Positions 7,720 through 20,532 of a stretch of 64,000 nucleotides of DNA are shown here, piece by piece. Below the pieces are notes generated by a model. That model saw nothing but the letters and a program-made list of their open reading frames with translations, was not told where the DNA came from and did no database searches. How positions within the stretch are numbered: the first letter of the stretch is position 1; each line of letters begins with the position of its first letter. The position numbers and the translations under genes are program-made. Source of the DNA: Desulfoglaeba alkanexedens ALDC (lineage in GTDB: Bacteria; Desulfobacterota; Syntrophobacteria; Syntrophobacterales; DSM-9756); contig NZ_CP040098.1 in assembly GCF_005377625.1 (NCBI RefSeq), forward strand, positions 2,349,501 through 2,413,500, read 5' to 3'.

Positions 7720-7800
7720 AGAGTTGTTTGTTGGGTAGAGGTATCTATCTCTAGTAGCAAGTCCTTACGGCCTTTGGCCTGCCCGGCGCGAAGGAAGTGA

Positions 7801-7844
7801 AGGCGCAACCGGCGGTTATCTCCGTCTAAGGTTGCGCCTTTTTT
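7801..7844 (+). terminator. Intrinsic terminator in the feoAB leader (possible attenuator)
   Basis: AGGCGCAACC (7801-7810) pairs perfectly with GGTTGCGCCT (7830-7839); inside, GGCGG and CCGTC extend the stem across a TAA bulge; six T residues end at 7844. This is a strong intrinsic terminator. It lies between a good promoter (7692-7719) and feoA (7887), so it either ends a small RNA or works as a regulated leader terminator. Upstream leader segments form smaller hairpins (GGCC-TTT-GGCC near 7769-7779 and AGAG/CTCT near 7757-7772). Confidence 0.75.
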
Positions 7845-7886
7845 GTTCAAGGGCCGCTATGCGGCGTTCATCGATGAGGAGGAGCC

Positions 7887-8116
7887 ATGACCCTGGACGA
7901 ACTCAAACCCGGCAGCCTGTGCTATGTCAAGCGCCTGGCCGCCCGCGACCACCTCGGACAACGCCTGATGGACATGGGACTTTACCCGGGGCTCTATTTG
8001 CGGGTGGTCCGCAACGCCCCCTGAAAGATCCCATGGAGGTGGAAATCGAAGGCCGTTTCCTCAGCCTGCGGCACGCCGAGGCCCGGTTCGTGGAGGTAGA
8101 AGGACGTGACCGATAA
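7887..8116 (+). pseudogene. feoA: feoA with a one-base frameshift
   Basis: ATG 7887 follows GAGGAGGAG. The first 45 codons read MTLDELKPGSLCYVKRL and GQRLMDMGLYPGLYLRVVRNAP, a normal FeoA start (SH3-like fold; cytosolic partner of FeoB). The frame then hits TGA at 8022-8024. The remaining FeoA C-terminus (about LKDPMEVEIEGRFLSLRHAE, ending at 8116) continues in another frame. Adding one C to the C run at 8017-8021 would restore a normal product of about 77 residues. So there is either a real loss, a programmed slip, or a sequencing error in a homopolymer. feoB begins at GTG 8106 inside the feoA tail, the usual coupled arrangement. Confidence 0.85.
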
Positions 8117-10580
8117 AAAGATCCTCGTGGCCCTGGCCGGCCAGCCCAACTGCGGCAAGTCCACCGTCTTCAACGCCCTGACCGGCGCCAGCCAGCACGT
8201 GGCCAACTACCCCGGGGTCACGGTTGACAAAATGTCCGGCCGCTACCGCTACGACGGCCGCACGGTGGAGGTGGTGGATCTGCCGGGCACCTACAGCCTG
8301 ACCTCCTATTCGCCCGAGGAGCGGGTCTCGCGTGATTTTATCCTGCACGAAAAGCCCTCGCTGGTGGTCAACGTCACCGACGCTTCCAACCTCAAGCGCA
8401 GTCTTTATCTCACCTTTCAACTGCTGGAGATGGAAATTCCGCTGGTGCTCAACCTGAACATGATGGACGTGGCCAACCGGCTGGGGGTGGTCATCGATAC
8501 CGAAGGGCTGGCGGAACACCTGGGAGTGGCGGTGGTGCCGACGAGCATGAGAGACGGAACGGGCAAGAAGGCCCTCATGCACGCCGTGGACGCCGCCGCC
8601 GCTGCGGCCGGAGGTAGCCGAAAAACGGCGGTGCGTATCGACTATGGGGAGATGGAACCTTTTTTGCGGGATATCGAAAAAAGGTTGGCCGATGAAACCA
8701 CCCTGCCAGCCTTCTATCCGTCCCGCTGGGTGGCCATCAAGTTGATGGAAGGCGACAGCGAGGTACAACGCTTGGTGCGCGCCGACAGCCCGCGCGCGGA
8801 GCATCTGCTGCGCTTCGTCGAACGGCTGCGCAACGATTTCGAGGATCGTGTCGGCGAAGCTCCCGAGCTGTTCATCGCCCACCGGCGTTACCGCGAAGCC
8901 GACGATATCGAGCGTCGCTATGTAACACCGGGCCGACAGGGAGTGGGCACTCTTTCGGATCGCATCGACAGGGTGGTTTGCCACCGGCTTCTCGGTCCCA
9001 TCGTTCTCGTGGGGGTCATCTGGCTCCTCTACTATCTGTCCATCGTTCAAGGATATCGCATTACCAACTACACCTGGCCACTGCTGGCAAAGATTCGTTC
9101 TCTGGCGGAAGCCGTCACTCCCCAGCCGGGCTTCATCGAAATCCCCATGTTGCGGGCTCTGGTGCTCTGGTTCGTCGACAGCGTCAACGCCCTTTTAAAC
9201 TACATCCCGATCTTCTTCATCCTCTTCGGGCTCATCGCCATCCTCGAGGACAGCGGCTACATGCCACGCATGGCCTTCATCATGGACAGGCTCTTTTCCC
9301 GCTACGGCCTGCACGGTCAGTCGACCCTGCCCATGGTCCTGGGAGGCATCTACGTCGGCGGCTGCGCCGTGCCAGGGGTCATGGCCTGCAAGGGAATCCC
9401 GGACGAGCGTTCGCGCCTGGCCACCATCCTGATCATCCCGCTGCTCAACTGCCTGGCCAAGGTGCCCCTCTACGTGCTGCTGATCAACATCTACTTCGCC
9501 GCCCACAAGGCCTGGGCGATGTTTTTCATCTCCACCATCAGCCTGCTGATGGTGCTGCCGATCTCGCGCATCCTGACCATGACGGTGCTGCGGGACAAGG
9601 AGACGGCGCCCTTCGTCATGGAAATGCCCCCCTACCACCTGCCCACGGTGCGCGGGGTGTTGGGCCGGGCGGTGGAACGGGTCTGGCTCTTCATCCGCAA
9701 GATCACCACCATCGTGGCGGCGGTGGCCGTGGTGATCTTCGTCCTACTGCAGTTTCCTGGAATCGACGACGAACGTATGGCCTACTACGAGACCCGTAAG
9801 GAAAAGGCGATCGCCGTCTTCCAGGAAAAAATCAGCAAGGTCCCCTACGCCGCCGAACTCCAGGGCCACAACCTCATGGCCCTGGTGCGCTACTGGGACG
9901 ACTACAAGGGCGACAAGATGCTTGTCAGGGGAAGGGAGGCGATGGACGCCCTGAACGCCGAATACGAAAAGCGCAATCCGCTCTTTTTCAAGATCGTTCA
10001 GCCCGGGGCGGACAAGGACGCCAAGACGATCAACCGGGCTTTCAAGGGTCTGTACCGGGAGCGCCAGGCGCTTCTGCGGGAGATGCGCAAGGAGAGAATC
10101 GACAAGAGTTTTCTCGGCCGCCTGGGCCGATGGCTGGAGCCGGCCACCCGTTTCGCGGGCTTCAACTGGCGCGTCAACGTCGCCTTGCTCAGCGCCTTCG
10201 CCGCCAAGGAGAGCAGCGTGGCGACCCTCGGCGCGCTCTACGAACCCGAAGAACGGGGCGAAGCCCTGGAAACGCGCATGGCTCGGGGCGAGGAGGGGTT
10301 CACCCCCTTGCACGCCCTGGCGCTGATGCTCTTCATGGTGCTCTACCCACCGTGCCTGGCCACTTCCATCGCCGTCAAGCTCCAGTCGGGTTCCGTTAAA
10401 TGGATGCTCTTTTCGATGTTCTACCCGATGGCGCTGGGGCTGATCGTGGCGGTGGCGGTTTTCTCCGGCGGCAGCGCCCTCGGGCTTACCGGGCTCCAGG
10501 CCATGATCGTCTTCTACGGCCTGGCACTCGGCTTTACGATCTTCATGGGCATTTACAAACAGCAACCGCAATTCAATTAG
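8106..10580 (+). CDS. feoB: Ferrous iron transporter FeoB
   Basis: 824 residues. The N-terminal G domain shows G1 (GQPNCGKS, residues 12-19), G3 (DLPG, about 60-63) and G4 (NMMD, about 118-121). The membrane part has the FeoB gate motifs, including GGIYVGGCAVPGV with its conserved cysteine, and ends with an NFeoB-typical helical core and C-terminal helices. The protein imports Fe2+ through the cytoplasmic membrane using GTP-regulated gating. A polar insert near residues 560-680 lies between the two Gate domains and is longer than in E. coli FeoB. GTG start at 8106 overlaps the tail of feoA. Together with the ferrosome-like block downstream it makes this region an iron acquisition and storage locus. 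Confidence 0.95.
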   Translation: MTDKKILVALAGQPNCGKSTVFNALTGASQHVANYPGVTVDKMSGRYRYDGRTVEVVDLPGTYSLTSYSPEERVSRDFILHEKPSLVVNVTDASNLKRSLYLTFQLLEMEIPLVLNLNMMDVANRLGVVIDTEGLAEHLGVAVVPTSMRDGTGKKALMHAVDAAAAAAGGSRKTAVRIDYGEMEPFLRDIEKRLADETTLPAFYPSRWVAIKLMEGDSEVQRLVRADSPRAEHLLRFVERLRNDFEDRVGEAPELFIAHRRYREADDIERRYVTPGRQGVGTLSDRIDRVVCHRLLGPIVLVGVIWLLYYLSIVQGYRITNYTWPLLAKIRSLAEAVTPQPGFIEIPMLRALVLWFVDSVNALLNYIPIFFILFGLIAILEDSGYMPRMAFIMDRLFSRYGLHGQSTLPMVLGGIYVGGCAVPGVMACKGIPDERSRLATILIIPLLNCLAKVPLYVLLINIYFAAHKAWAMFFISTISLLMVLPISRILTMTVLRDKETAPFVMEMPPYHLPTVRGVLGRAVERVWLFIRKITTIVAAVAVVIFVLLQFPGIDDERMAYYETRKEKAIAVFQEKISKVPYAAELQGHNLMALVRYWDDYKGDKMLVRGREAMDALNAEYEKRNPLFFKIVQPGADKDAKTINRAFKGLYRERQALLREMRKERIDKSFLGRLGRWLEPATRFAGFNWRVNVALLSAFAAKESSVATLGALYEPEERGEALETRMARGEEGFTPLHALALMLFMVLYPPCLATSIAVKLQSGSVKWMLFSMFYPMALGLIVAVAVFSGGSALGLTGLQAMIVFYGLALGFTIFMGIYKQQPQFN

Positions 10581-10599: not shown

Positions 10600-10920
10600 A
10601 TGCAACACGGCAAGTTTCTGGTCATCGGCATTATGGTTCTGGCGCTCGCCTGGGCTGCCCCGGCCCTGGCCCACACGCCCCTGTGCGCCTGCTACGACAA
10701 CGGCGACGGAACGGTCACCTGCGAGGGCGGCTTTTCCGACGGCTCATCGGCCGCCGGGGTAGCGATGCGCGTGGAGGCCGGCGGCAAGGTCGTGATTCAA
10801 GGCAAGATGGACGAGAACAGCGAGTTCAGCTTCAAGAAGCCCGCGGGCGACTACAAGGTCGTCTTCGACGCCGGCGAGGGGCACAGGATCGAGATCGAGG
10901 GGAAAGACATTCTGGAGTGA
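10600..10920 (+). CDS. Small exported protein of unknown function next to feoB
   Basis: 106 residues, start at 10600 behind AGGGAGGT (10585-10592). A signal peptide ends at the A-L-A-H boundary near residue 25. The mature part starts HTPLCACYDNGDG with three cysteines in the first 20 residues, then a beta-rich segment that looks like a carboxypeptidase-regulatory-like (transthyretin-type) fold. It lies 19 nt after feoB and upstream of a DUF4198 gene. Pairs of a DUF4198 protein and a small exported protein (NikK/NikL) are known beside ECF-type Ni/Co importers; here the pair follows feoB, so it may serve iron. Function not established. Confidence 0.65.
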   Translation: MQHGKFLVIGIMVLALAWAAPALAHTPLCACYDNGDGTVTCEGGFSDGSSAAGVAMRVEAGGKVVIQGKMDENSEFSFKKPAGDYKVVFDAGEGHRIEIEGKDILE

Positions 10921-11072: not shown

Positions 11073-11870
11073 ATGCGGAAAATCGTCGTTGCGGCAACAA
11101 TTCTGTCTCTCCTTCTGGCTACGCCGGCGTTGGCCCACTTTCAGATGATTTACACCCCCGAGTCGGCGCTGGTACAGGGGAGCGAAATCAGTCTGGACCT
11201 GGTGTTCACCCATCCCTTCGAAGCCGGCCATACGATGGATATGGGGCAACCGGAGCAGTTTTTCGTCGTGCGCAAGGGAAAGAAAACCGATCTTCTACCC
11301 ACCCTCAAACCGATGGTCTGGACCAGCTTGACCAATAGCGGAGCGGCCTACGAAACCACTTTCAAGCTGCGGGGCATGGGCGACAACGCCTTCTGCCTGG
11401 TGCCGGCCCCCTATTACGAAAAGCAAGAAGACATCTATATCCAACAGATCACTAAACTAATTGTGAACACCGGCGGGTTCCCCACTGACTGGGATGCCCC
11501 GGTGGGCCTGCCGGCCGAGATCGTGCCCTTGGACAAGCCCTACGCCCTGTGGACCGGCAACGTCTTTCGCGGGGTCGTGTTGAGTGACGGCAAGCCGGTG
11601 CCCAACGCCGAGATCGAAGTCGAGTACCTCAACCACGCCCCGCTGCCGGAGAAGAACGCCTTTGCCAAAGAGGCTGAAGTCGAGGCGCCCCAGGACGCCT
11701 TCGTCACCATGGGCATCCGTGCCAACGCCGACGGGGAGTTCGTCTTCGGCATCCCTCGGGCCGGCTGGTGGGGCTTTTGCGCGCTCGGCGTGGGACCTGC
11801 CAAGACGTTCGAGGGCAAGGAGCTGTCCCAGGACGCGGTGATCTGGGTCCAGGCTCGGGATATGAAATAG
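11073..11870 (+). CDS. DUF4198 periplasmic protein (second copy)
   Basis: 265 residues. Start at 11073 behind AAGGAG. Signal peptide to about residue 20, mature chain beginning A-H-F-Q-M-I as in DUF4198 proteins. The chain contains three conserved blocks of the family: an early D-L-x-F-x-H-P-F-E (near 48-56), a central segment of variable beta strands, and a late repeat-like Ig segment with G-x-x-V-x-N-A-x-x-E-V-E. It differs strongly from the 3962-4771 protein, so the two are not a recent duplication. Position after feoB and the small exported protein implies a periplasmic role in metal delivery. Which metal it binds is unknown. Confidence 0.75.
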   Translation: MRKIVVAATILSLLLATPALAHFQMIYTPESALVQGSEISLDLVFTHPFEAGHTMDMGQPEQFFVVRKGKKTDLLPTLKPMVWTSLTNSGAAYETTFKLRGMGDNAFCLVPAPYYEKQEDIYIQQITKLIVNTGGFPTDWDAPVGLPAEIVPLDKPYALWTGNVFRGVVLSDGKPVPNAEIEVEYLNHAPLPEKNAFAKEAEVEAPQDAFVTMGIRANADGEFVFGIPRAGWWGFCALGVGPAKTFEGKELSQDAVIWVQARDMK

Positions 11871-12065: not shown

Positions 12066-14309
12066 ATGACCGCCATGAATACGGGTTCGGAGAAGTTCAG
12101 GGTCAAGAGCCGCATCCCCGGACGCCTGCGCCTGAGGGTGCCGGCCATTCGGTTCTCTAAGGAGCGCGCCGACGCTCTGCAGGCCTGGCTTTCCTCGCAC
12201 CCAAGTGTCGTGAGCGCTGAGGCCAGGCCCAGGAGCGCCAGCGTCATTTTGTTCTTTGATCCTCATCATATGGAAGCCAGTGTTATCCTGGATATTGTGT
12301 CCAGTGCCCTGTCTGGAGTTCTCCATGGTCCTTTGGACAGGGTCTCCTTGTCCGGGCACACCGCGTGCGGCCTGGACTGCAAGGTCTGCCATCCGATACC
12401 GAGGACCTTGAAGCGCCAGTCTCTGAAGGGGCGGTTGGTGGAAGTGGTGGCTATCACCGCCTTTGTGGGCTACACCCTCATCCGCCGGTTGCTTTTCAAA
12501 TCGCCCCTGGCGCAGGGTCCTTTTTCCATTGTCGCAGGCGTCGCGCTGATCGCGGCCATTCCCCTGTTCCGACATGCCCTGGAAGATCTCAGGCAGGGAA
12601 AGGCCATGAGTCTCTTTCCCTTTCTGGCCGGCACCTGCGTCCTCGCGATTGCGATGGGGGAGGCCATGACCGCCCTGGAGGTGATCTGGATCCTGCGCGT
12701 GGGTATGCTACTGGAAGACTATGTGGCCGAGCAGTCCCGCCGGGCCATCAGCGAGATCCTCCAGGTAGCGACAAAAGACACCTATATCCTCGTGGACGGG
12801 GTGGAGGTCCAAGTCCCGGTGGATCAGGTTCAGAAGGGAGATCTCCTCATCGTTCACACCGGCGAAAAGATCCCTGTGGATGGGATAGTGGAGCGTGGAG
12901 AAGCCCTTGTGGACGAGGCCCATATCACCGGAAGGGCCGAGCCGGAGCTTCGCAGTACCGGGGACCGGGTCTTTGCCGGGACCATCGTTCAGAAAGGGGT
13001 CATTGTTGTTTCAGCGGAAAAGGTGGGGGACGATACCTATCTCTGCCGCATTCTCCACATGGTGGAAGACGCCATCGAAAACCGCGCCCCGGCTGAAAAA
13101 CAGGCGGATGTTCTGGCTGGGCGTCTCTTCCGGCTCGGCGCCTTCGCCACCGTAACGACGCTCCTGCTGACCGCAGATCCCCTTCGCGCCTTCACCGTCA
13201 TGCTGGTGATGGCCTGTCCCTGCGCCACGGTCCTGGCCGCATCCACGGCCGTGAGCGCAGCCCTGGCCAACGCGGCGCGCAACCGCATTCTGATCAAAGG
13301 CGGTCTGCATCTCGAGACAGTGGGCAAGGCCGACTGCTTCTGCTTTGACAAGACGGGCACCATTACGGCCGAGGTCCCCGAGGTGATCGAGGTGATTCCA
13401 CGGGCGCCTGGACAGACCGAGGTCCAGGTCTTGGCCACGGCCGCCATTGCCGAGATCCACAATGAGCATCCCATGGCCAAGGCTGTGCTTTACGCGGCCA
13501 AGCGCCGGGACATTGAACCTGCACCCCATGCCGAATGTGAATTTGTCCTGGGTCGCGGCGTTACGGCCAGGACCAACGGGGACGTCATTCTGGTGGGGAA
13601 CGACCGGTTCATGAAGGAGCATCAAATACCTCTAACGTGTTTCAATGCCCGATCGGATGAGCGGATTGGGCAGGGAAACACGGTCCTCTATGTGGCTAAA
13701 AACGGGAAGCTCCAGGGGATGATCGTGGTGGCCAATGGGGTAAAGCCCAATGCAAAGGCCGTTCTGGACTGGCTCCGGAAAGACGGCGTGTCATCGCTCT
13801 ATCTTGTCACCGGAGACACCCAGCCGGTGGCGGAAGCGATTGCTCAGTCCATGAGTTTTGACGATTACCGCGCGAATCTGCTTCCTGAAGACAAGGCCTC
13901 TTATGTGGAGCGGCTCGAACAGGGCGGCAAACGGGTGGTGATGATCGGCGACGGCGTCAATGACGCCCTGGCCCTGTCCAAGGCCACGGTGGGCGTGGCC
14001 ATGGGGGCCGGAGGGGCCGAGGTGGCCATCGAGGCGGCCGATATCGCCCTGGTGGACAGTGAACTGGAGCATCTGGTTACGCTGCGGCAACTCAGCCATA
14101 AGACCCTGAGGACCATCGAGCAGAACTACTATCTCGCGACCTCTACCAATGTTCTGGGGGTTGTCCTGGGCGCAGCAGGATGGCTGACCCCTGTCATGGC
14201 CGGCATGCTCCATATCGTGCATACATTGGGGATTCTGCTCAATTCGTCTCGACTGTTGAACTGGAAAGCGCCCGGGTTGCCCCAAAATCGCGAGAAGGAA
14301 AATGGATGA
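12066..14309 (+). CDS. P1B-type ATPase with CPC motif, RxxGRxR-type N-terminus and altered TGE loop
   Basis: 747 residues, ATG 12066 behind AAGGAATTGG. The N-terminus (residues 10-90) has an HMA-like fold but no CxxC; instead it has I-P-G-R-L-R-L-R (17-24). A cysteine cluster follows at C101, C105 and C108. Membrane segments near 123-170 and 185-215 precede an actuator domain with GEKIPVDG and, at 288-290, T-G-R in place of the T-G-E that P-type ATPases need for dephosphorylation. TM with C-P-C is at 384-386; the phosphorylation site D-K-T-G-T is at 428-432; a G-D-G-V-N-D-A hinge and a final N-S-S-R-L-L helix complete the fold. It would move a transition metal ion, though the TGE change questions turnover. 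It overlaps the next gene by ATGA and heads the cluster. Confidence 0.85.
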   Translation: MTAMNTGSEKFRVKSRIPGRLRLRVPAIRFSKERADALQAWLSSHPSVVSAEARPRSASVILFFDPHHMEASVILDIVSSALSGVLHGPLDRVSLSGHTACGLDCKVCHPIPRTLKRQSLKGRLVEVVAITAFVGYTLIRRLLFKSPLAQGPFSIVAGVALIAAIPLFRHALEDLRQGKAMSLFPFLAGTCVLAIAMGEAMTALEVIWILRVGMLLEDYVAEQSRRAISEILQVATKDTYILVDGVEVQVPVDQVQKGDLLIVHTGEKIPVDGIVERGEALVDEAHITGRAEPELRSTGDRVFAGTIVQKGVIVVSAEKVGDDTYLCRILHMVEDAIENRAPAEKQADVLAGRLFRLGAFATVTTLLLTADPLRAFTVMLVMACPCATVLAASTAVSAALANAARNRILIKGGLHLETVGKADCFCFDKTGTITAEVPEVIEVIPRAPGQTEVQVLATAAIAEIHNEHPMAKAVLYAAKRRDIEPAPHAECEFVLGRGVTARTNGDVILVGNDRFMKEHQIPLTCFNARSDERIGQGNTVLYVAKNGKLQGMIVVANGVKPNAKAVLDWLRKDGVSSLYLVTGDTQPVAEAIAQSMSFDDYRANLLPEDKASYVERLEQGGKRVVMIGDGVNDALALSKATVGVAMGAGGAEVAIEAADIALVDSELEHLVTLRQLSHKTLRTIEQNYYLATSTNVLGVVLGAAGWLTPVMAGMLHIVHTLGILLNSSRLLNWKAPGLPQNREKENG

Positions 14310-14644
14310 GAGAAATTGAAGGCATGAATAATGAGAAAATTATTGCGGGTCTTATGAGCATTGTGCCGCATGCGGTCATCGCCCATCATATTCCGGGCCG
14401 GATCCGGCTCAAGATCTCCCTTGAGGGCGTCAAGACCCTCAACGGCAAGATGGATGCCCACGATCCCCTGCGGGTTCCCGGCATCCTGAGCACACGGATC
14501 AACAGGTTCGCTCGATCCATCGTCATCGATTACGAGGAGAAAAGGATACCGTATGACCTGTGGGAGCGTCTTGGTCAGATCAAGGAACGGCCTGAAGCGG
14601 GTGCCGATGTGGGTGAAGCAGTTCAGGGCGGTGCTGGCCAATGA
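14306..14644 (+). CDS. Small HMA-like protein with IPGRIRLK motif
   Basis: 112 residues, ATG 14306 overlapping the stop of the ATPase gene (ATGA) with AAGGAAAATGG upstream. It consists of one HMA-like domain bearing I-P-G-R-I-R-L-K at residues 29-36, the same motif that begins both ATPases of this cluster, then a predicted beta-alpha-beta region (V-P-G-I-L-S-T-R-I-N, F-A-R-S-I-V-I-D-Y) typical of ferredoxin-fold metal-binding domains. No CxxC is present, so it is not a classical copper chaperone. It looks like a free-standing version of the ATPase N-terminal domain and may act as a partner or adaptor. Resembles HMA_2-type domain proteins; ferrosome role is inferred from context. Confidence 0.7.
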   Translation: MREIEGMNNEKIIAGLMSIVPHAVIAHHIPGRIRLKISLEGVKTLNGKMDAHDPLRVPGILSTRINRFARSIVIDYEEKRIPYDLWERLGQIKERPEAGADVGEAVQGGAGQ

Positions 14645-14748
14645 AGGCTGAGGCGGCTTAACAGCCAAACGCCCAAGACACTGAAAAGCTCAAAGCTGAA
14701 AGCCGAAACGAATTATCGGTTGTCAGGGCTCGAATCAAATCAATGACC

Positions 14749-14780
14749 ACTGAATGGCTACTGAATGGCTACTGAATGAC
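14749..14780. repeat. Three tandem 11-bp repeats
   Basis: ACTGAATGGCT occurs twice, followed by ACTGAATGACC, in the 216-nt gap before the Gly/Pro-rich protein gene. Apart from this and the ribosome site GAGAGGAG near 14847-14854 I see nothing notable in the gap. Confidence 0.7.
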
Positions 14781-14860
14781 CAAGTGGTCTGATCACCGAT
14801 CATCTGAGCCCCAGCAACTCATTGAAAGGGCAAAAACGCCAAACAAGAGAGGAGACCATA

Positions 14861-15889
14861 ATGGAAGGAAACACAGGAATGGAACCACAACATGGTGGGC
14901 GGATGAACGGTCCGCCTGCGGACGGCCAGGCCGGAACCGCGGCCATGGCCGGCGCCCAGGGAGGACAACCCCTCCCTGCCCAGGGTCAACCACAGATGGG
15001 AGGGCCCATGATGAGCGTGGGAGGCGCCGGGAATCCCCCCGGCCAGGGGGGCGGCACCGAGGAGTCCTGCTCATGCAGCGAACATGAACCCCAGGCGCCT
15101 GCCGGATCGGGGCAGGGTTCTGTCCCTCCAGGTCCATCGGGCACCACAGGCACATATCCAGGGGCCATGGGCTCTCCAGGCATGAACCCGGGGTTCACGG
15201 GGCCTGCAGGCATGCAGCCGGGGTCCACGAGATCTTCCGGGGCTCCCGGCATGAACCCGGGGTCTGCGGACATGAATGCGGGTCAGTCTGGATCGCAGGG
15301 AGCCTGGCATCCTGGCAACCCGCCCTATTCACCGGGCGCAATGGGAAATCCCGGACCTTCTGCGGGACCGTTTTCCCAGCCGGGTCAGGCACCATGGTCC
15401 TTCCCGGGCCCTGCGCAGATGGGACCGCAACCGGGGGCCTATCCGGGCCAGGGACCAGAGCCCCCGTTTCCACCCCACTATACGGCAGGTCACAATCAAC
15501 CAGCGCATCAACCCTGGAGCCATCCTGCTTCCGGCCCACAGGGATTCGGGCCGTCCACAGCCCCTCATATGGGCCATGCGGCTCCTGTACAGGGAATCGG
15601 CTACATGGGCGCGGACGCCCCTCATATCCACCATGACGAAAACCGCTTCGGTCAGATGGCCGACATGGTGGGGCGGTTTCTGAAGGGTGAGGCCACCACT
15701 GCGGATATGGTCAACGGCCTGTTCAGCCTCAACTTTCGGGACGACCAGTTCTGGAAGGGGGCGCTGCTGGGGGCCGTGGCTGTACTCATTTTTAACAGTG
15801 ATGCGGTTCATCAGGGCTTAGGCAAGCTCTTCAGGAGCAAATCTTCAGATGCCGATGCAGCGAGTGCGGCCGCTGAGAAGACCGCCTAG
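14861..15889 (+). CDS. Gly/Pro/Met-rich disordered protein with C-terminal membrane helix
   Basis: 342 residues. Start 14861 (ATG) follows AGAGGAG. Residues 1-250 are low complexity, rich in Gly, Pro, Met, Gln and Ser, with recurring G-M-N-P-G / P-G-M-x-P-G units (seven or so between about 100 and 145) and a His-rich patch (HIHHDE near 255). The last 90 residues differ: an amphipathic helix (M-A-D-M-V-G-R-F-L-K-G), then N-F-R-D-D-Q-F-W-K-G-A and a single hydrophobic helix, and a polar tail ending in Ala/Lys. The NFRDxQFWKGA element with its helix recurs in the 16433-16867 protein. It may scaffold or coat a membrane compartment; no known family recognised with confidence. Confidence 0.75.
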   Translation: MEGNTGMEPQHGGRMNGPPADGQAGTAAMAGAQGGQPLPAQGQPQMGGPMMSVGGAGNPPGQGGGTEESCSCSEHEPQAPAGSGQGSVPPGPSGTTGTYPGAMGSPGMNPGFTGPAGMQPGSTRSSGAPGMNPGSADMNAGQSGSQGAWHPGNPPYSPGAMGNPGPSAGPFSQPGQAPWSFPGPAQMGPQPGAYPGQGPEPPFPPHYTAGHNQPAHQPWSHPASGPQGFGPSTAPHMGHAAPVQGIGYMGADAPHIHHDENRFGQMADMVGRFLKGEATTADMVNGLFSLNFRDDQFWKGALLGAVAVLIFNSDAVHQGLGKLFRSKSSDADAASAAAEKTA

Positions 15890-15946
15890 AAGAAATCAAA
15901 ATAGACAGAGAGACGCGTTTCGTCTTGATATGAAAAGGAGATCACC

Positions 15947-16333
15947 ATGCCAAATCATTTCCATCACCCCCATGCGCTTCAGCAGTCTTCCTATGCCGCG
16001 GCGGCCCCATCCGCTTATATGGCCCCCAATTACTATGTATCCGCGGGCATCCTCGGGATGGTCGTAGGCGGTAGTGCAGCGCTTGCCTCAAACCTGCACA
16101 AGGTTCAGGACAAGGAAATGACGATGAGAGAGGCCTTTGTGGACAGCCTTGCCAAAGGCGCCGGCGCTGGGGTCGCCACAGCCGCCGCCACTGCCGTGGT
16201 TTCATCGGTCCGCCTGGGCTCGTTCGGGTCCTTCGTCCTGATGTTGGCCACGGCTACGGGTGTGGGCTATGTATTGAATTCTGTTGGAGAGTCTGTTTCC
16301 GAAAAGGCCTTGGGGGCCGCAAAGAAAAAATAG
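15947..16333 (+). CDS. Small Gly/Ala-rich membrane protein of the ferrosome-like cluster
   Basis: 128 residues, start 15947 behind AAGGAGATCACC. The N-terminus is His-rich (MPNHFHHPHALQQ), then a hydrophobic glycine-rich helix near residues 28-46, a charged linker (Q-D-K-E-M-T-M-R-E-A-F-V-D) and a second glycine/alanine-rich hairpin near 65-110 with G-x-G-A-G-V-A-T. The tail is Lys-rich. Glycine-zipper hairpins of this kind occur in proteins that bend or line membranes (for example magnetosome MamC and MamD-like proteins), but I see no specific homology. The histidines could bind iron. Role unknown; assigned to the cluster by position and style. Confidence 0.65.
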   Translation: MPNHFHHPHALQQSSYAAAAPSAYMAPNYYVSAGILGMVVGGSAALASNLHKVQDKEMTMREAFVDSLAKGAGAGVATAAATAVVSSVRLGSFGSFVLMLATATGVGYVLNSVGESVSEKALGAAKKK

Positions 16334-16353
16334 CCAAGAACATTTTGGAATTT

Positions 16354-16371
16354 AGGAATTGTGCAATTCCT
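16354..16371. promoter_or_regulatory. 8-bp perfect palindrome between two cluster genes
   Basis: AGGAATTG-TG-CAATTCCT at 16354-16371 lies in the gap between the 128-residue and 144-residue protein genes. It has dyad symmetry of an operator, or could form a small mRNA hairpin. Confidence 0.4.
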
Positions 16372-16432
16372 CGGTTCGTTAAAAAAACAACCCGGTGGAG
16401 CATGTTTCACACTGAAAGAAAGGAAGGATCTT

Positions 16433-16867
16433 ATGTCAGCACATCATCATCCGGATTATTCAAGCCCCGGCATTCACCCGGGGTCACCGGAAGCACCGAT
16501 GCACCAGCCTGTCGCCTATGACGGGGGTGTTTACCATCAGGCTGCAGGACCGGGGCCGCTGCCTTATGGCGTCTATGGACAAATTGACGGGTATCCGGGC
16601 GTGGGTTATGCGGCCGCAAGCTATCCCCAGGCACAGCCATACCCTTCAACCACCTTTCTTGGCCTCAATTTTCGAGACCAGCAATTCTGGAAAGGGGCCG
16701 TCCTGGGCGCCGCTGTTACCCTGCTTTTGACCAGCGAGACCATGCAAAAGGGAATCATAAGAGGCGTTGCCAAAATGTATGGGGCGGTCCAGGGCGGCAT
16801 TCAGGAGATCAAGGAGAAATTTGAGGACGTTCAGGCGGAACTGCACCGGGAAAGCGAAAAGAAATAG
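16433..16867 (+). CDS. Membrane protein sharing the NFRDxQFWKGA module
   Basis: 144 residues, ATG 16433 behind AAAGGAAGGATC; an in-frame start at 16361 has no ribosome site. Residues 1-70 are His/Pro/Gly/Tyr-rich (MSAHHHPDYSSPGIHPG). Residues 78-110 hold G-L-N-F-R-D-Q-Q-F-W-K-G-A followed by one hydrophobic helix (V-L-G-A-A-V-T-L-L-L), nearly the same module as the C-terminus of the 14861-15889 protein. The end is a charged helix likely to form a coiled coil (I-Q-E-I-K-E-K-F-E-D-V-Q-A-E-L-H). It appears to be a shorter paralogue that keeps the membrane anchor and adds a coiled coil. YtxH-like anchors have a similar layout. Function unknown. Confidence 0.7.
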   Translation: MSAHHHPDYSSPGIHPGSPEAPMHQPVAYDGGVYHQAAGPGPLPYGVYGQIDGYPGVGYAAASYPQAQPYPSTTFLGLNFRDQQFWKGAVLGAAVTLLLTSETMQKGIIRGVAKMYGAVQGGIQEIKEKFEDVQAELHRESEKK

Positions 16868-16877
16868 GCGGAGAACC

Positions 16878-17081
16878 ATGGATAAGGCTGCGGTAAAGGA
16901 GCTCACTAAATCAGGGATGGTCGTCTCCCTCGGTGTCCTTGCCTGGACGGCCCTGGGAAAAGGGCGCCGCAACTGGACCCTGCACACCTGGGCCGGCATT
17001 GCCCTGGTAGGGTTTTCCGTGTGGCACTACAATACGTACCAGCCGCATGGAAAAAGGCATTTATCACACAGAAAGGAGTAG
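16878..17081 (+). CDS. 67-residue membrane protein
   Basis: ATG 16878 lies 10 nt after the previous stop with GGAG upstream. Two hydrophobic segments are visible (about 13-28 and 37-50) around a basic G-K-G-R-R-N-W turn; the tail is basic and His-rich (H-G-K-R-H-L-S-H-R-K). Tight spacing places it in the same operon. I do not recognise the family by sequence; small two-helix proteins (FezA-like) occur in described ferrosome operons, so it is a candidate for such a role. Confidence 0.6.
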   Translation: MDKAAVKELTKSGMVVSLGVLAWTALGKGRRNWTLHTWAGIALVGFSVWHYNTYQPHGKRHLSHRKE

Positions 17082-17085
17082 GATT

Positions 17086-17232
17086 ATGCCAATGCCGTTT
17101 TTTTCCCGTCCGATCGGATGGTTGATTCTTGGCACCGTAGGGTACCTGATTTACAGGTCCGGGAAGAAAGCGGGAGAAAAAAAGGTGGAAGACGGGGATG
17201 AGAGCAAGCCGGTGAAACAGAAAGACGCGTAG
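17086..17232 (+). CDS. 48-residue single-helix membrane protein
   Basis: ATG 17086 follows AAGGAG at good distance and begins 4 nt after the previous stop. One hydrophobic helix (about residues 8-21, GWLILGTVGYLIY) is followed by a highly charged tail (Lys/Glu/Asp). No family recognised. It ends the first half of the cluster and its stop is embedded in a terminator-like hairpin. Confidence 0.6.
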   Translation: MPMPFFSRPIGWLILGTVGYLIYRSGKKAGEKKVEDGDESKPVKQKDA

Positions 17233-17244
17233 CTGTCTTTTTTT
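17221..17244 (+). terminator. Probable terminator of the first half of the ferrosome-like cluster
   Basis: AAAGAC (17221-17226) pairs with GTCTTT (17235-17240) and runs into seven T residues (17238-17244). The stem is short and A/T-containing, so strength is moderate. Confidence 0.5.
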
Positions 17245-17632
17245 CGTCCGCTTATCGATCGAAGGGCCAGGGCGCCCGCCGTATGGTGAGGGTCAAGGCT
17301 CCGTACGAGCGCCCAGAGATGTCTTTTACTTTTTTTTGAGGCAATCGGTTGCAGTGCACCCAAGCGTGCCCCTACCATGCGCAGGCATCCGGGCTCTCGT
17401 TCCCAAGCTCCGGCACCCAAGGTCTGGTTCCCAAGCTCCGGCACCCAAGGTCTGGTTCCCAAGCTCCGGCACCCAAGGTCTGGTTCCCAAGCTCCGGCTT
17501 GGGAACCTCTTTGTTCGGGGAAGCTCCGGCTTCCCATCCTTTGCGCGAACAGTTGCTCATGGTTCAATACAGACCGATCACCGACTGTCTGAAACCTGAA
17601 ACCGTCATAGGGCAGGGACAGGATGAAAGGCC
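17245..17632. other. Intergenic region with tandem repeats between the two cluster halves
   Basis: 388 nt without a gene. It holds a second T-rich stretch near 17322-17338, the 28-bp tandem repeats (17400-17504) and then 120 nt leading into the second ATPase gene with AGGGACAGGATGAAAGG before the start. No clear promoter found. Confidence 0.5.
17400..17504. repeat. Three and three-quarter tandem copies of a 28-bp unit
   Basis: Units begin with TTCCCAAGCTCCGGC at 17400, 17428, 17456 and 17484; the first three continue ACCCAAGGTCTGG without any spacer, while the last one ends as the complete palindrome found elsewhere in the window. It is an expansion of the dispersed palindrome family. Confidence 0.9.
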
Positions 17633-19813
17633 ATGACAGAGGGAGACCACCCGCCAAAACACCGGCTGCAAGTCGTTCACGATATACCGGGCCGAATCCG
17701 GATTCGCAGCCCATATTTGGGTGATCCGTTTGTGGACACCCGTTACCTGGAGGCCTTCCTCCAGGCGGTTCCCGGCATAGAAAGTGTTCGGTTGAACAAA
17801 CCGGCCGCCTGCGTGGCGGTTCGTTATGATGACGGCGCCGGCACCCGAAAGAAGATTCTCGATGTCTTGGAATGTCCTCCCGGGGAGATCCATTGCCAAA
17901 CGTACGATTTTTCCCATCCCCCGGACCTGACCAAGACCATCCGGGTGGCCTTGTCTCTTATTCTTGTGCCGTTCTTGCCTATGCGCCTTCGGGCGCTCCT
18001 GACCTGGTTCACGGCGCTGCCGATTCTGGTCAAGGGCGCGGACGCCATCCTCAACGAAGGGGTTACGGTCGAGGTCCTGGATGCCGGGGCTGTTACGTTT
18101 ACCCTGATGCGGCGGGACTACTTCTCATCCAACGCCATTGTGCTGTTGTTGACCTTCGGGGATTATTTGCAGGAACTCACGGAATACAAATCCAACCGCC
18201 TCCTCTTGAGCCTCTACAAACAGGAGGTCGAATGGGTATGGGTTGAAGTGGGCGGCGTAGAGACACGGTTTCCCGTGGACGAGGTAAAGGTGGGAGATAT
18301 CGTCGTTTGCGGCCACGGGGAACTCATTCCCGTGGACGGGGTGGTGGTGGAAGGGGCCGCTGCCATCAATGCCAGTTCCATCACGGGAGAACCCCTGCCT
18401 GTGGATGCGACGCCGGGTACCGAGGTGTTTTCGGGGACGGTGATCGAAGAGGGCCGCATCAAGATCAGGGCCGTACGGGTCGGCTCCGAATCCACTACGG
18501 CCAAGATCAGCCAGTATATTGAAAAATCGCTCAAGAACAAATCTCGGGTGCAGACCGAGTCGGAAACCATGGCCAACCGTCTGGTGCCTCTGACCTTCGG
18601 GATGGGCCTTGGCATCTTTGCCGTCACCGGAGATATCCGGCGTGCCTCGGCCGCCCTGACCGTGGACTATTCCTGCGCCCTGAAACTGTGCAGTCCGGTC
18701 GCGGTCAAGACCGGCATGAACTCGGCCGCTCAGGGGGGTCTGGTGATCAAGGGCGCCTCAGCGTTGGAGGCCTTTTCAAAGGTCGATACCTTTGTGTTTG
18801 ACAAGACCGGCACCCTCACCCAGGGGTCTCCGGAGGTGACGGACATTGTCTCTTTCGGTGAATGCAGCCAAAACGAGGTGCTGGCCCTGGCCGCCTCCGC
18901 GGAAGCGCACTACAAGCACCCGATTGCCTCGGCTATTGCGACGGCTTCAAAACAACGGGGCGTGCCGCTTATTGAGGCCGGGGAATGTGATTTTATCGTT
19001 GCACATGGGGTTTCCGCTTTTGTGGCTTCCCACGAGGTGTTAGTGGGAAACCGTCATTTTGTGGCTGAAGACGAGGGGATTGATTGCAGCATGGGCGAGG
19101 AAAGCGCCAGGGCGCTCCACGCCGAAGGAAAATCGACCCTTTATGTTGCAAAGGACGGCGAATTGGCCGGATTAATCGCCATTCGTGACGTGATTCGGCC
19201 CGAGGCGAATGCGGCCCTTTGGCGATTGAAATCCCTGGGAATAAAGCATCTGGTGGTTCTTACCGGCGATCAGAAAGAAGCGGCCGAGGCCGTCAAACGG
19301 GCGCTGCCCATCACAGAGATTCACTGGAATCTACTGCCCGAGGAAAAGGCCGTCATCCTTGAAAGGCTCAAGGCCGAAGGCCGTTCCATCGCCTTTGTCG
19401 GCGACGGCGTCAACGATGCGCCGGCCCTGATTCGAGCCGATGTGGGGGTTTCCATGCCCGGCGGCGCGGACCTGGCCAGGCAAACGGCCCAGGTGCTGCT
19501 CTTGAGGGAGGACCTGATGACGCTTCCCTTTGCCCGGGAGATTTCCCAGCGCGTCATGAGCGTTTTGCGAAACAACTTTCGTTTGACCGTGGGAATCAAT
19601 AGTGCCGTGTTGCTGATGGCGCTCACGGGCCTTGCGTCTCCATTGGCCGCAGCGATCCTTCACAACGGCACTACCATTGGACTTCTGACCTATGCCATGC
19701 GCGCCACCACGCTGCGGCCCCAAGGGGAATCAGAAGAATTTCATGCAATGCCGCTGATGCGAGCCAATGGGGGATTCGTAAACCCGGACGCGCTTTTGAA
19801 CGGAGAACGATGA
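17633..19813 (+). CDS. fezB: P1B-6-type ATPase, FezB-like (ferrosome-associated)
   Basis: 726 residues. The N-terminal HMA-like domain lacks CxxC and carries I-P-G-R-I-R-I-R at 18-25, the R-rich motif I associate with FezB proteins. Actuator loop T-G-E is intact (251-253). The metal-site helix has S-C-A-L (347-350) with C353-S-P instead of CPC, the signature described for the P1B-6 class to which FezB of Desulfovibrio magneticus and Clostridioides difficile belongs. D-K-T-G-T is at 390-394, the H-P dipeptide at 429-430, G-D-G-V-N-D-A at 590-596, and a late helix has L-H-N-G-T-T (676-681). In ferrosomes this pump is thought to load iron into a membrane-bounded granule. It overlaps the next gene by ATGA. 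I am sure of P1B ATPase, fairly sure of P1B-6. Confidence 0.8.
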   Translation: MTEGDHPPKHRLQVVHDIPGRIRIRSPYLGDPFVDTRYLEAFLQAVPGIESVRLNKPAACVAVRYDDGAGTRKKILDVLECPPGEIHCQTYDFSHPPDLTKTIRVALSLILVPFLPMRLRALLTWFTALPILVKGADAILNEGVTVEVLDAGAVTFTLMRRDYFSSNAIVLLLTFGDYLQELTEYKSNRLLLSLYKQEVEWVWVEVGGVETRFPVDEVKVGDIVVCGHGELIPVDGVVVEGAAAINASSITGEPLPVDATPGTEVFSGTVIEEGRIKIRAVRVGSESTTAKISQYIEKSLKNKSRVQTESETMANRLVPLTFGMGLGIFAVTGDIRRASAALTVDYSCALKLCSPVAVKTGMNSAAQGGLVIKGASALEAFSKVDTFVFDKTGTLTQGSPEVTDIVSFGECSQNEVLALAASAEAHYKHPIASAIATASKQRGVPLIEAGECDFIVAHGVSAFVASHEVLVGNRHFVAEDEGIDCSMGEESARALHAEGKSTLYVAKDGELAGLIAIRDVIRPEANAALWRLKSLGIKHLVVLTGDQKEAAEAVKRALPITEIHWNLLPEEKAVILERLKAEGRSIAFVGDGVNDAPALIRADVGVSMPGGADLARQTAQVLLLREDLMTLPFAREISQRVMSVLRNNFRLTVGINSAVLLMALTGLASPLAAAILHNGTTIGLLTYAMRATTLRPQGESEEFHAMPLMRANGGFVNPDALLNGER

Positions 19814-20532
19814 TGGTGAACCTTGAAGAAGCCGATCCAGGAAATGTTTTGCGGGTTGTGCGTGTTGAGAGCAGCCATCTGGCGCACGACCTGTATCGCA
19901 TTGGTCTCGAGCCGGGAAGCAAACTGATCAAGTTCCCAAAGGATGAAATTAAACGGCGCTCGGTACGCGTCGCGTGTCCCGATGGAAACCATCGGGTTCT
20001 GGGCGGCGGCATGAGCGCCAAGATCGTTGTAGAGAGACCCGATGGTTCCAAGACGCCGCTGTCGCAGATGAAACCCAAGGAGCAGGGCAAGATCATTGCC
20101 CTCACCGGAGGCCCCGGGTTTCGGGATACCCTGAAAACCCTCGGTTTTTCCATCGGGGACACGATTCGTCTCATGCGTTTGCTGCCCCCCATGGAATATA
20201 TTGCAGTGGTGGACAAACACAAGCACGTCCACCTTCAGGAAGGGATCGCCTCCAAGATATGGGGCGTTTCAGAGGGCGCTGAAAGGCAGTTTACGTCCGC
20301 CGGGAAACGAAAGGACTTCGAGGTCACGAAGCTCTTGGGAGGCGCCAGGGCCAGGGGCTATCTGGAAAACCTCCATATTGGCCCGGGCACAAACCTGGTT
20401 CTTATCGACATTGAGCCGAGCAAGCCCATTGCCTTCGGCCCTCAGGATCATCTCGCCATCGAGACCATGGATGGCCTCCGCATTCATCTCGGACCTAATG
20501 AAGCCAGGGCAGTCTTTGTGGAAAAAGTGTAG
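19810..20532 (+). CDS. Protein with three tandem FeoA-like domains
   Basis: 240 residues, translation-coupled to the ATPase (ATGATGG; 4-nt overlap). The chain divides into three SH3-like units: about 7-75, 88-156 and 166-240. Each has the FeoA pattern of a first strand, a short helix, L-x-x-x-G-[LF]-x-x-G-[DS]-x-[IL] (for example Y-R-I-G-L-E-P-G near 29-36; L-K-T-L-G-F-S-I-G near 116-124; L-H-I-G-P-G near 190-195) and a closing strand after G-x-x-A-x-x-I/V. Single FeoA domains bind FeoB or serve as C-terminal regulatory domains of DtxR/MntR. A cytosolic triple repeat has no transmembrane part and could contact the adjacent ATPases the way FeoA contacts FeoB. Confidence 0.75.
   Translation: MMVNLEEADPGNVLRVVRVESSHLAHDLYRIGLEPGSKLIKFPKDEIKRRSVRVACPDGNHRVLGGGMSAKIVVERPDGSKTPLSQMKPKEQGKIIALTGGPGFRDTLKTLGFSIGDTIRLMRLLPPMEYIAVVDKHKHVHLQEGIASKIWGVSEGAERQFTSAGKRKDFEVTKLLGGARARGYLENLHIGPGTNLVLIDIEPSKPIAFGPQDHLAIETMDGLRIHLGPNEARAVFVEKV

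Follow-up and report, generated by a model that had tools for sequence, protein, structure and literature searches.

A probable enlarged ferrosome (fez) operon with a MamC-family protein in Desulfoglaeba alkanexedens ALDC

The window, by which we mean the whole stretch of 64,000 nucleotides of Desulfoglaeba alkanexedens ALDC DNA that was analysed, carries the genes described here on its + strand. The first-pass annotation had placed a ferrosome-like cluster at 12066-20532, and all of its elements were found there: two P1B ATPases, three proteins with an IPGR motif, four small membrane proteins (15947-16333, 16433-16867, 16878-17081 and 17086-17232), a disordered low-complexity protein and a protein with three FeoA stretches. 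The motif reads IPGRLRLR in ATPase 1 (12066-14309), IPGRIRLK in a stand-alone protein of 112 aa (14306-14644) and IPGRIRIR in ATPase 2 (17633-19813), and each time it lies inside a Pfam HMA_2 domain (1.5e-8, 4.7e-5 and 5.9e-7, respectively). Genes of the cluster overlap or are separated by short distances, except for 400 bp before ATPase 2.

The cluster had also been described as lying downstream of feoAB, and this holds for feoB (8106-10580; ferrous iron transporter, NCBIfam TIGR00437, 2.3e-139); however, the iron uptake gene feoA (7888-8110) contains a frameshift: near 8020 a C run (8017-8023) is one base short, through either a true mutation or a sequencing error. Two genes stand between feoB and the cluster. 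They encode exported proteins of 106 aa (10600-10920; relatives in L037, L038, L041 and L181) and 265 aa (11073-11870; judged DUF4198-like from its sequence; relatives in L037, L041, L044 and L181), both recurrent neighbours of feoB. Just 5' of feoA, at about 7800-7850, a strong stem-loop is followed by a T run and is possibly a leader terminator; a search against Rfam gave no match, this stem-loop included.

The 400-bp gap ahead of ATPase 2 holds a tandem array of 28-bp units as well as a stem resembling a terminator, and for this reason the cluster may form two transcripts. The array (17395-17498; 3.7 copies of the 28-bp unit) is related to the palindrome TTCCCAAGCTNNAGCTTGGGAA, which has 11 near-matches in the window (7096, 7344, 17484, 20985, 22710, 40549, 58266, 60454 and others) and is present without mismatch at 349 places in the genome of 3.37 Mb, where the reversed control has 0. 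A search for DtxR-like palindromes returned no match.

Ferrosomes are membrane-bound iron stores built by fez genes. In ATPase 2, the fourth transmembrane segment (TM4) carries DYSCALKL at the position where ATPase 1 has CPC, in agreement with the SCAL replacement noted earlier, and in the FezB alignment DY-CALKL and HNG-T are invariant. A quick tree, with SH-aLRT as its only support and no bootstraps, groups ATPase 2 in a single clade with ATPases from fez-type operons of named Proteobacteria (SH-aLRT 100), and both cluster ATPases fall apart from E. coli CopA and ZntA. The AlphaFold model (pLDDT 80) shows a P1B fold preceded at the N-terminus by an HMA-like domain. Taking the ATPases of the named operons as reference, the phylogeny thus bears out the earlier assignment to the FezB type, with no contrary placement, and ATPase 2 is by tree and motif FezB-like. 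Fe(II) has been given as the substrate of the P1B-6 class (PMC7558416). A copper or zinc pump was considered for this protein and ruled out by tree, motif and gene context.

To survey the neighbourhoods, we located ATPase 2 relatives across 297 genomes of the window's phylum and retrieved the surrounding DNA. The whole set or large parts of it recur in about ten loci, some of them broken by contig ends, and this recurrence rules out a chance assembly of the genes. The recurrent extended set comprises ATPase 1, the HMA_2 protein, the disordered protein, a MamC-like, a YtxH-like and a FezC-like protein, FezB and the FeoA triple (absent in L044), and several of these loci are flanked by feoB and the genes for the 106-aa and 265-aa proteins. 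The conserved neighbours are feoB, FeoA and HMA2 proteins, and not copper or zinc resistance genes. A shorter cluster type, with YtxH-like, FezB, HMA_2 and FeoA genes, is found elsewhere in the phylum, and one genome (G165) has both types. Another variant (L059:3138-10781, in G212) carries a second CPC ATPase and, in the stretch examined, lacks a FezB-type ATPase.

Beyond the phylum, fez-type operons were found in Azospirillum, Cereibacter, Arcobacter, Vibrio, Shewanella, Photobacterium, Ferrimonas, Enterobacterales and Chromatiaceae, in a sample of plasmid records plus 80 named genome contigs that were the best matches to a Vibrio query and therefore lean towards Gammaproteobacteria; the label "fez-type" rests here on the common FezB clade and the gene set. 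Complete operons occur in many Enterobacterales (L106-L123: Kluyvera, Hafnia, Pluralibacter, Budvicia, Brenneria and one Serratia record). The usual order in the named loci is HMA_2, disordered FWKGA protein, MamC-like protein, YtxH and FezB, each gene being present in 71-82 of 84 loci (HMA2 in 71, FWKGA-disordered in 78, YtxH in 82), as counted with HMMs whose seeds came in part from these loci. The window matches most of the 84 loci in the set and order of the genes that accompany FezB. Most of the pieces that had been taken for undescribed components are, then, ordinary fez-operon genes, and this includes the low-complexity protein and the NFRDxQFWKGA pair, whose relatives belong to the core of fez-type operons across Gammaproteobacteria.

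Both members of that pair can be recognized in the window. The disordered protein (14861-15889) has 55 Gly and 46 Pro among residues 1-240, and its C-terminus consists of NFRDDQFWKGA and a hydrophobic membrane segment; by alignment, the FWKGA segment is shared with the YtxH-like protein at 16433-16867, which carries NFRDQQFWKGA. The 67-aa protein (16878-17081) has two His that are invariant in 13 sequences and a weak match to Pfam DUF4405 (E 0.0054, under the cut-off). FezC has been described as a heme protein, a DUF4405-type cytochrome (PMC11334425), and the 67-aa protein is a candidate for a FezC-like cytochrome of this type. It is followed by a 48-aa protein with a single predicted transmembrane segment (17086-17232; relatives in L040 and L059). 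The last gene (19810-20532) starts within the fezB stop codon, with a 4-bp overlap, and encodes the FeoA triple (Pfam FeoA, 3.6e-21, over three stretches), relatives of which follow fezB in L037-L043; Pfam and NCBIfam searches found no DNA-binding domain in it.

ATPase 1 forms a clade of 8 members (SH-aLRT 100) of its own. It retains the CPC motif of soft-metal pumps, and its clade occurs in 15 of the 297 phylum genomes, five of which lack a MamC gene; it might, on these grounds, be an unrelated exporter of a soft metal (Cu, Zn or Mn) that merely adjoins the fez operon. We regard this as unlikely, though deserving some weight, since 10 of the 12 genomes with a MamC gene also carry ATPase 1 (Fisher p 1.5e-13, with genomes treated as independent of kinship), the clade is distinct from CopA and ZntA, and the stop of the ATPase 1 gene overlaps by 4 bp the HMA_2 gene of the fez set. 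In G228, a relative of ATPase 1 sits beside FezC-like, CDF-like, FeoA, FeoB and DtxR-like genes (the CDF and DtxR labels being judged from sequence), with neither FezB nor MamC-like genes; this neighbourhood points to iron or manganese. ATPase 1 relatives at L182, L184, L185 and L186 are accompanied by other HMA_2 proteins in the same cluster or genome; a P-type ATPase of ~1000 aa with an HMA_2-like start is present in three of these and YtxH-like genes in two.

MamC (Mms13) is a magnetosome protein that controls the size and shape of magnetite crystals. The 128-aa membrane protein encoded at 15947-16333 matches the NCBIfam MamC model NF038051 (3e-13), with a score of 49.9 bits where an equivalog needs 100 bits, and is by profile a relative in the MamC family, not MamC itself. 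The first-pass annotation had recognized neither this family nor the FezC-like gene at 16878. The same model matches 12 of the 297 phylum genomes, with 11 hits inside fez-type clusters; one of these 11, in G171, is on a short contig that also carries YtxH-like and FWKGA pieces, apart from the FezB contig of that genome. The hit that stands alone (L164:2776-3153, in G070) is a MamC-family gene outside any fez cluster and has the top MamC score in the phylum sample, 61 bits. Among the named fez-carrying genomes, 23 of 29 are matched. A search with NF038051 for true MamC found it in 0 of 385 alphaproteobacterial genomes and 0 of 14 controls; because three alphaproteobacterial fez relatives (Methylocystaceae, Cereibacter and Azospirillum) escaped the model, this absence is partly a matter of sensitivity. 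An HMM built from the window's phylum alone found the gene in 80 of the 84 named loci (best 1e-23) and gave 0 matches among 4200 shuffled sequences; both this test and that with NF038051 are independent of the seeding of the 84-locus counts. The profile match is thus significant and cluster-specific, and places the protein, as judged by profile, in the MamC superfamily.

Could the match be a chance likeness of Gly/Ala-rich membrane helices, in a protein unrelated to the magnetosome one? The score is half of the equivalog cut-off, and the structure model, which has helices at 27-54, 60-87 and 92-127, is of modest confidence (pTM 0.33) and found no match among PDB folds with Foldseek; of MamC, the PDB contains the loop only, and a PDB sequence search with the whole protein returned a chance hit only. 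We nevertheless find chance very improbable, given that the match covers about 80 of 97 positions with the soluble loop included, that off-cluster hits number one in 297 genomes and none in 385, and that no shuffled sequence was matched by the phylum-only model. A 28-aa query of the MamC loop matched PDB entries 6eqz, 5e7u and 5mm3, and in the loop alignment (5e7u, 5mm3) Glu66 and Asp70 of MamC stand opposite E62 and D66 of the window protein. In vitro work has linked E66 and D70 to the binding of magnetite (PMC6206293, PMC6584501). Besides the window protein, those of L059, L038 and L164 retain both acidic residues; most of the other relatives have lost them, and so the pair may not be essential.

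Taking into consideration that: (i) ATPase 2 belongs to the FezB-type clade and shares its TM4 motif, (ii) the core order HMA2, FWKGA, MamC-like, YtxH and FezB is that of most of the 84 named loci, (iii) a FezC-like gene with an invariant His pair is present, and feoB and FeoA are neighbours in several loci, (iv) MamC-family membership is cluster-specific in the phylum, and (v) R. palustris is reported to form ferrosomes from six fez genes (PMC12016538); we consider it likely that the cluster is an enlarged ferrosome (fez) operon with a MamC-family, iron-binding lumenal protein. Several observations speak against this reading: a search for Fur-type sites near the cluster found none; the MamC match is below the cut-off; the acidic pair is lost in most fez relatives; and the genome also encodes a ferritin, so that a ferrosome would not be its sole option for iron storage.

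P1B ATPases are best known as exporters, and G228 has the ATPase 1 relative among feo, CDF and DtxR-like genes with neither FezB nor a MamC-like gene. The cluster might accordingly serve efflux or detoxification of iron (or manganese) at the cytoplasmic membrane, where the small proteins would form a membrane platform around the pumps without any vesicle being made. This seems improbable to us, as the cluster shares its five-gene core with fez-type operons, fez operons are reported to make ferrosomes (PMC12016538, PMC11334425), and the MamC-family protein points to a compartment that contains mineral.

For the ferrosome, the homologies, motifs, gene order and phylogeny given above suggest the following model, in which activities, the direction of transport, the orientation of the MamC loop and the formation of a vesicle are what we infer. 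FeoB would import Fe(II) into the cell, and the FezB-type ATPase, aided by its own HMA_2 domain and by the stand-alone HMA_2 protein, would pump it into a vesicle. In the vesicle membrane, the MamC-family protein would turn its loop towards the lumen, where acidic residues could hold iron and help mineral to form, while the FezC-like cytochrome would tune the redox state of the iron. Shaping or tethering of the vesicle may fall to the disordered FWKGA protein together with its YtxH-like relative; the FeoA triple may act as a cytosolic modulator of FezB or FeoB, and the CPC-type ATPase 1 would serve this organelle by moving iron or a different metal.

The MamC-family protein, being present in nearly all the fez-type operons examined, is a concrete candidate for the part of the ferrosome that contacts the mineral. 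The extended set would further point to a second pump and to a FeoA-domain partner for FezB. At somewhat less than even chances, we also suggest that MamC branched off from a protein of the ferrosome core, so that magnetosomes would owe a mineral-binding part to the ferrosome, the more widespread of the two. In that case the MamC-family protein of ferrosomes would nucleate or hold iron mineral in the vesicle lumen, and the family would tie by descent two organelles that are treated as genetically separate. No statement of a link between MamC and ferrosomes was found in the literature searched, which did not include the two founding ferrosome papers.

Compared with known systems, both cluster ATPases share the P1B fold with P1B-1 and P1B-2 pumps (CopA, ZntA), and ATPase 1 keeps their CPC; unlike those pumps, both fall in an HMA_2-bearing group. 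The 15947 protein resembles MamC (Mms13) in profile family, in two helices with a loop between them and in E62/D66 as counterparts of E66/D70, but it scores below the equivalog cut-off, has a longer, His-rich N-terminus, and its gene sits in a cluster of iron-storage type instead of with magnetosome genes. Like FezC and the DUF4405 cytochromes (PMC11334425), the 67-aa protein is a short protein of the membrane that has two conserved His, and its gene adjoins fezB; its Pfam match is under the cut-off, and its heme binding is a prediction. The 19810 protein shares with FeoA its domains and an iron context, but has three domains in one protein, and its gene begins within the stop codon of fezB, not ahead of feoB. 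As the fez operons of D. magneticus, R. palustris, S. putrefaciens and C. difficile presumably do, the operon described here brings together in one cluster a FezB-type ATPase and HMA2, FWKGA, MamC-like, YtxH-like and FezC-like proteins, a likeness drawn through fez-type loci and at the level of genes; unlike them, it adds a second P1B ATPase of CPC type and the FeoA triple.
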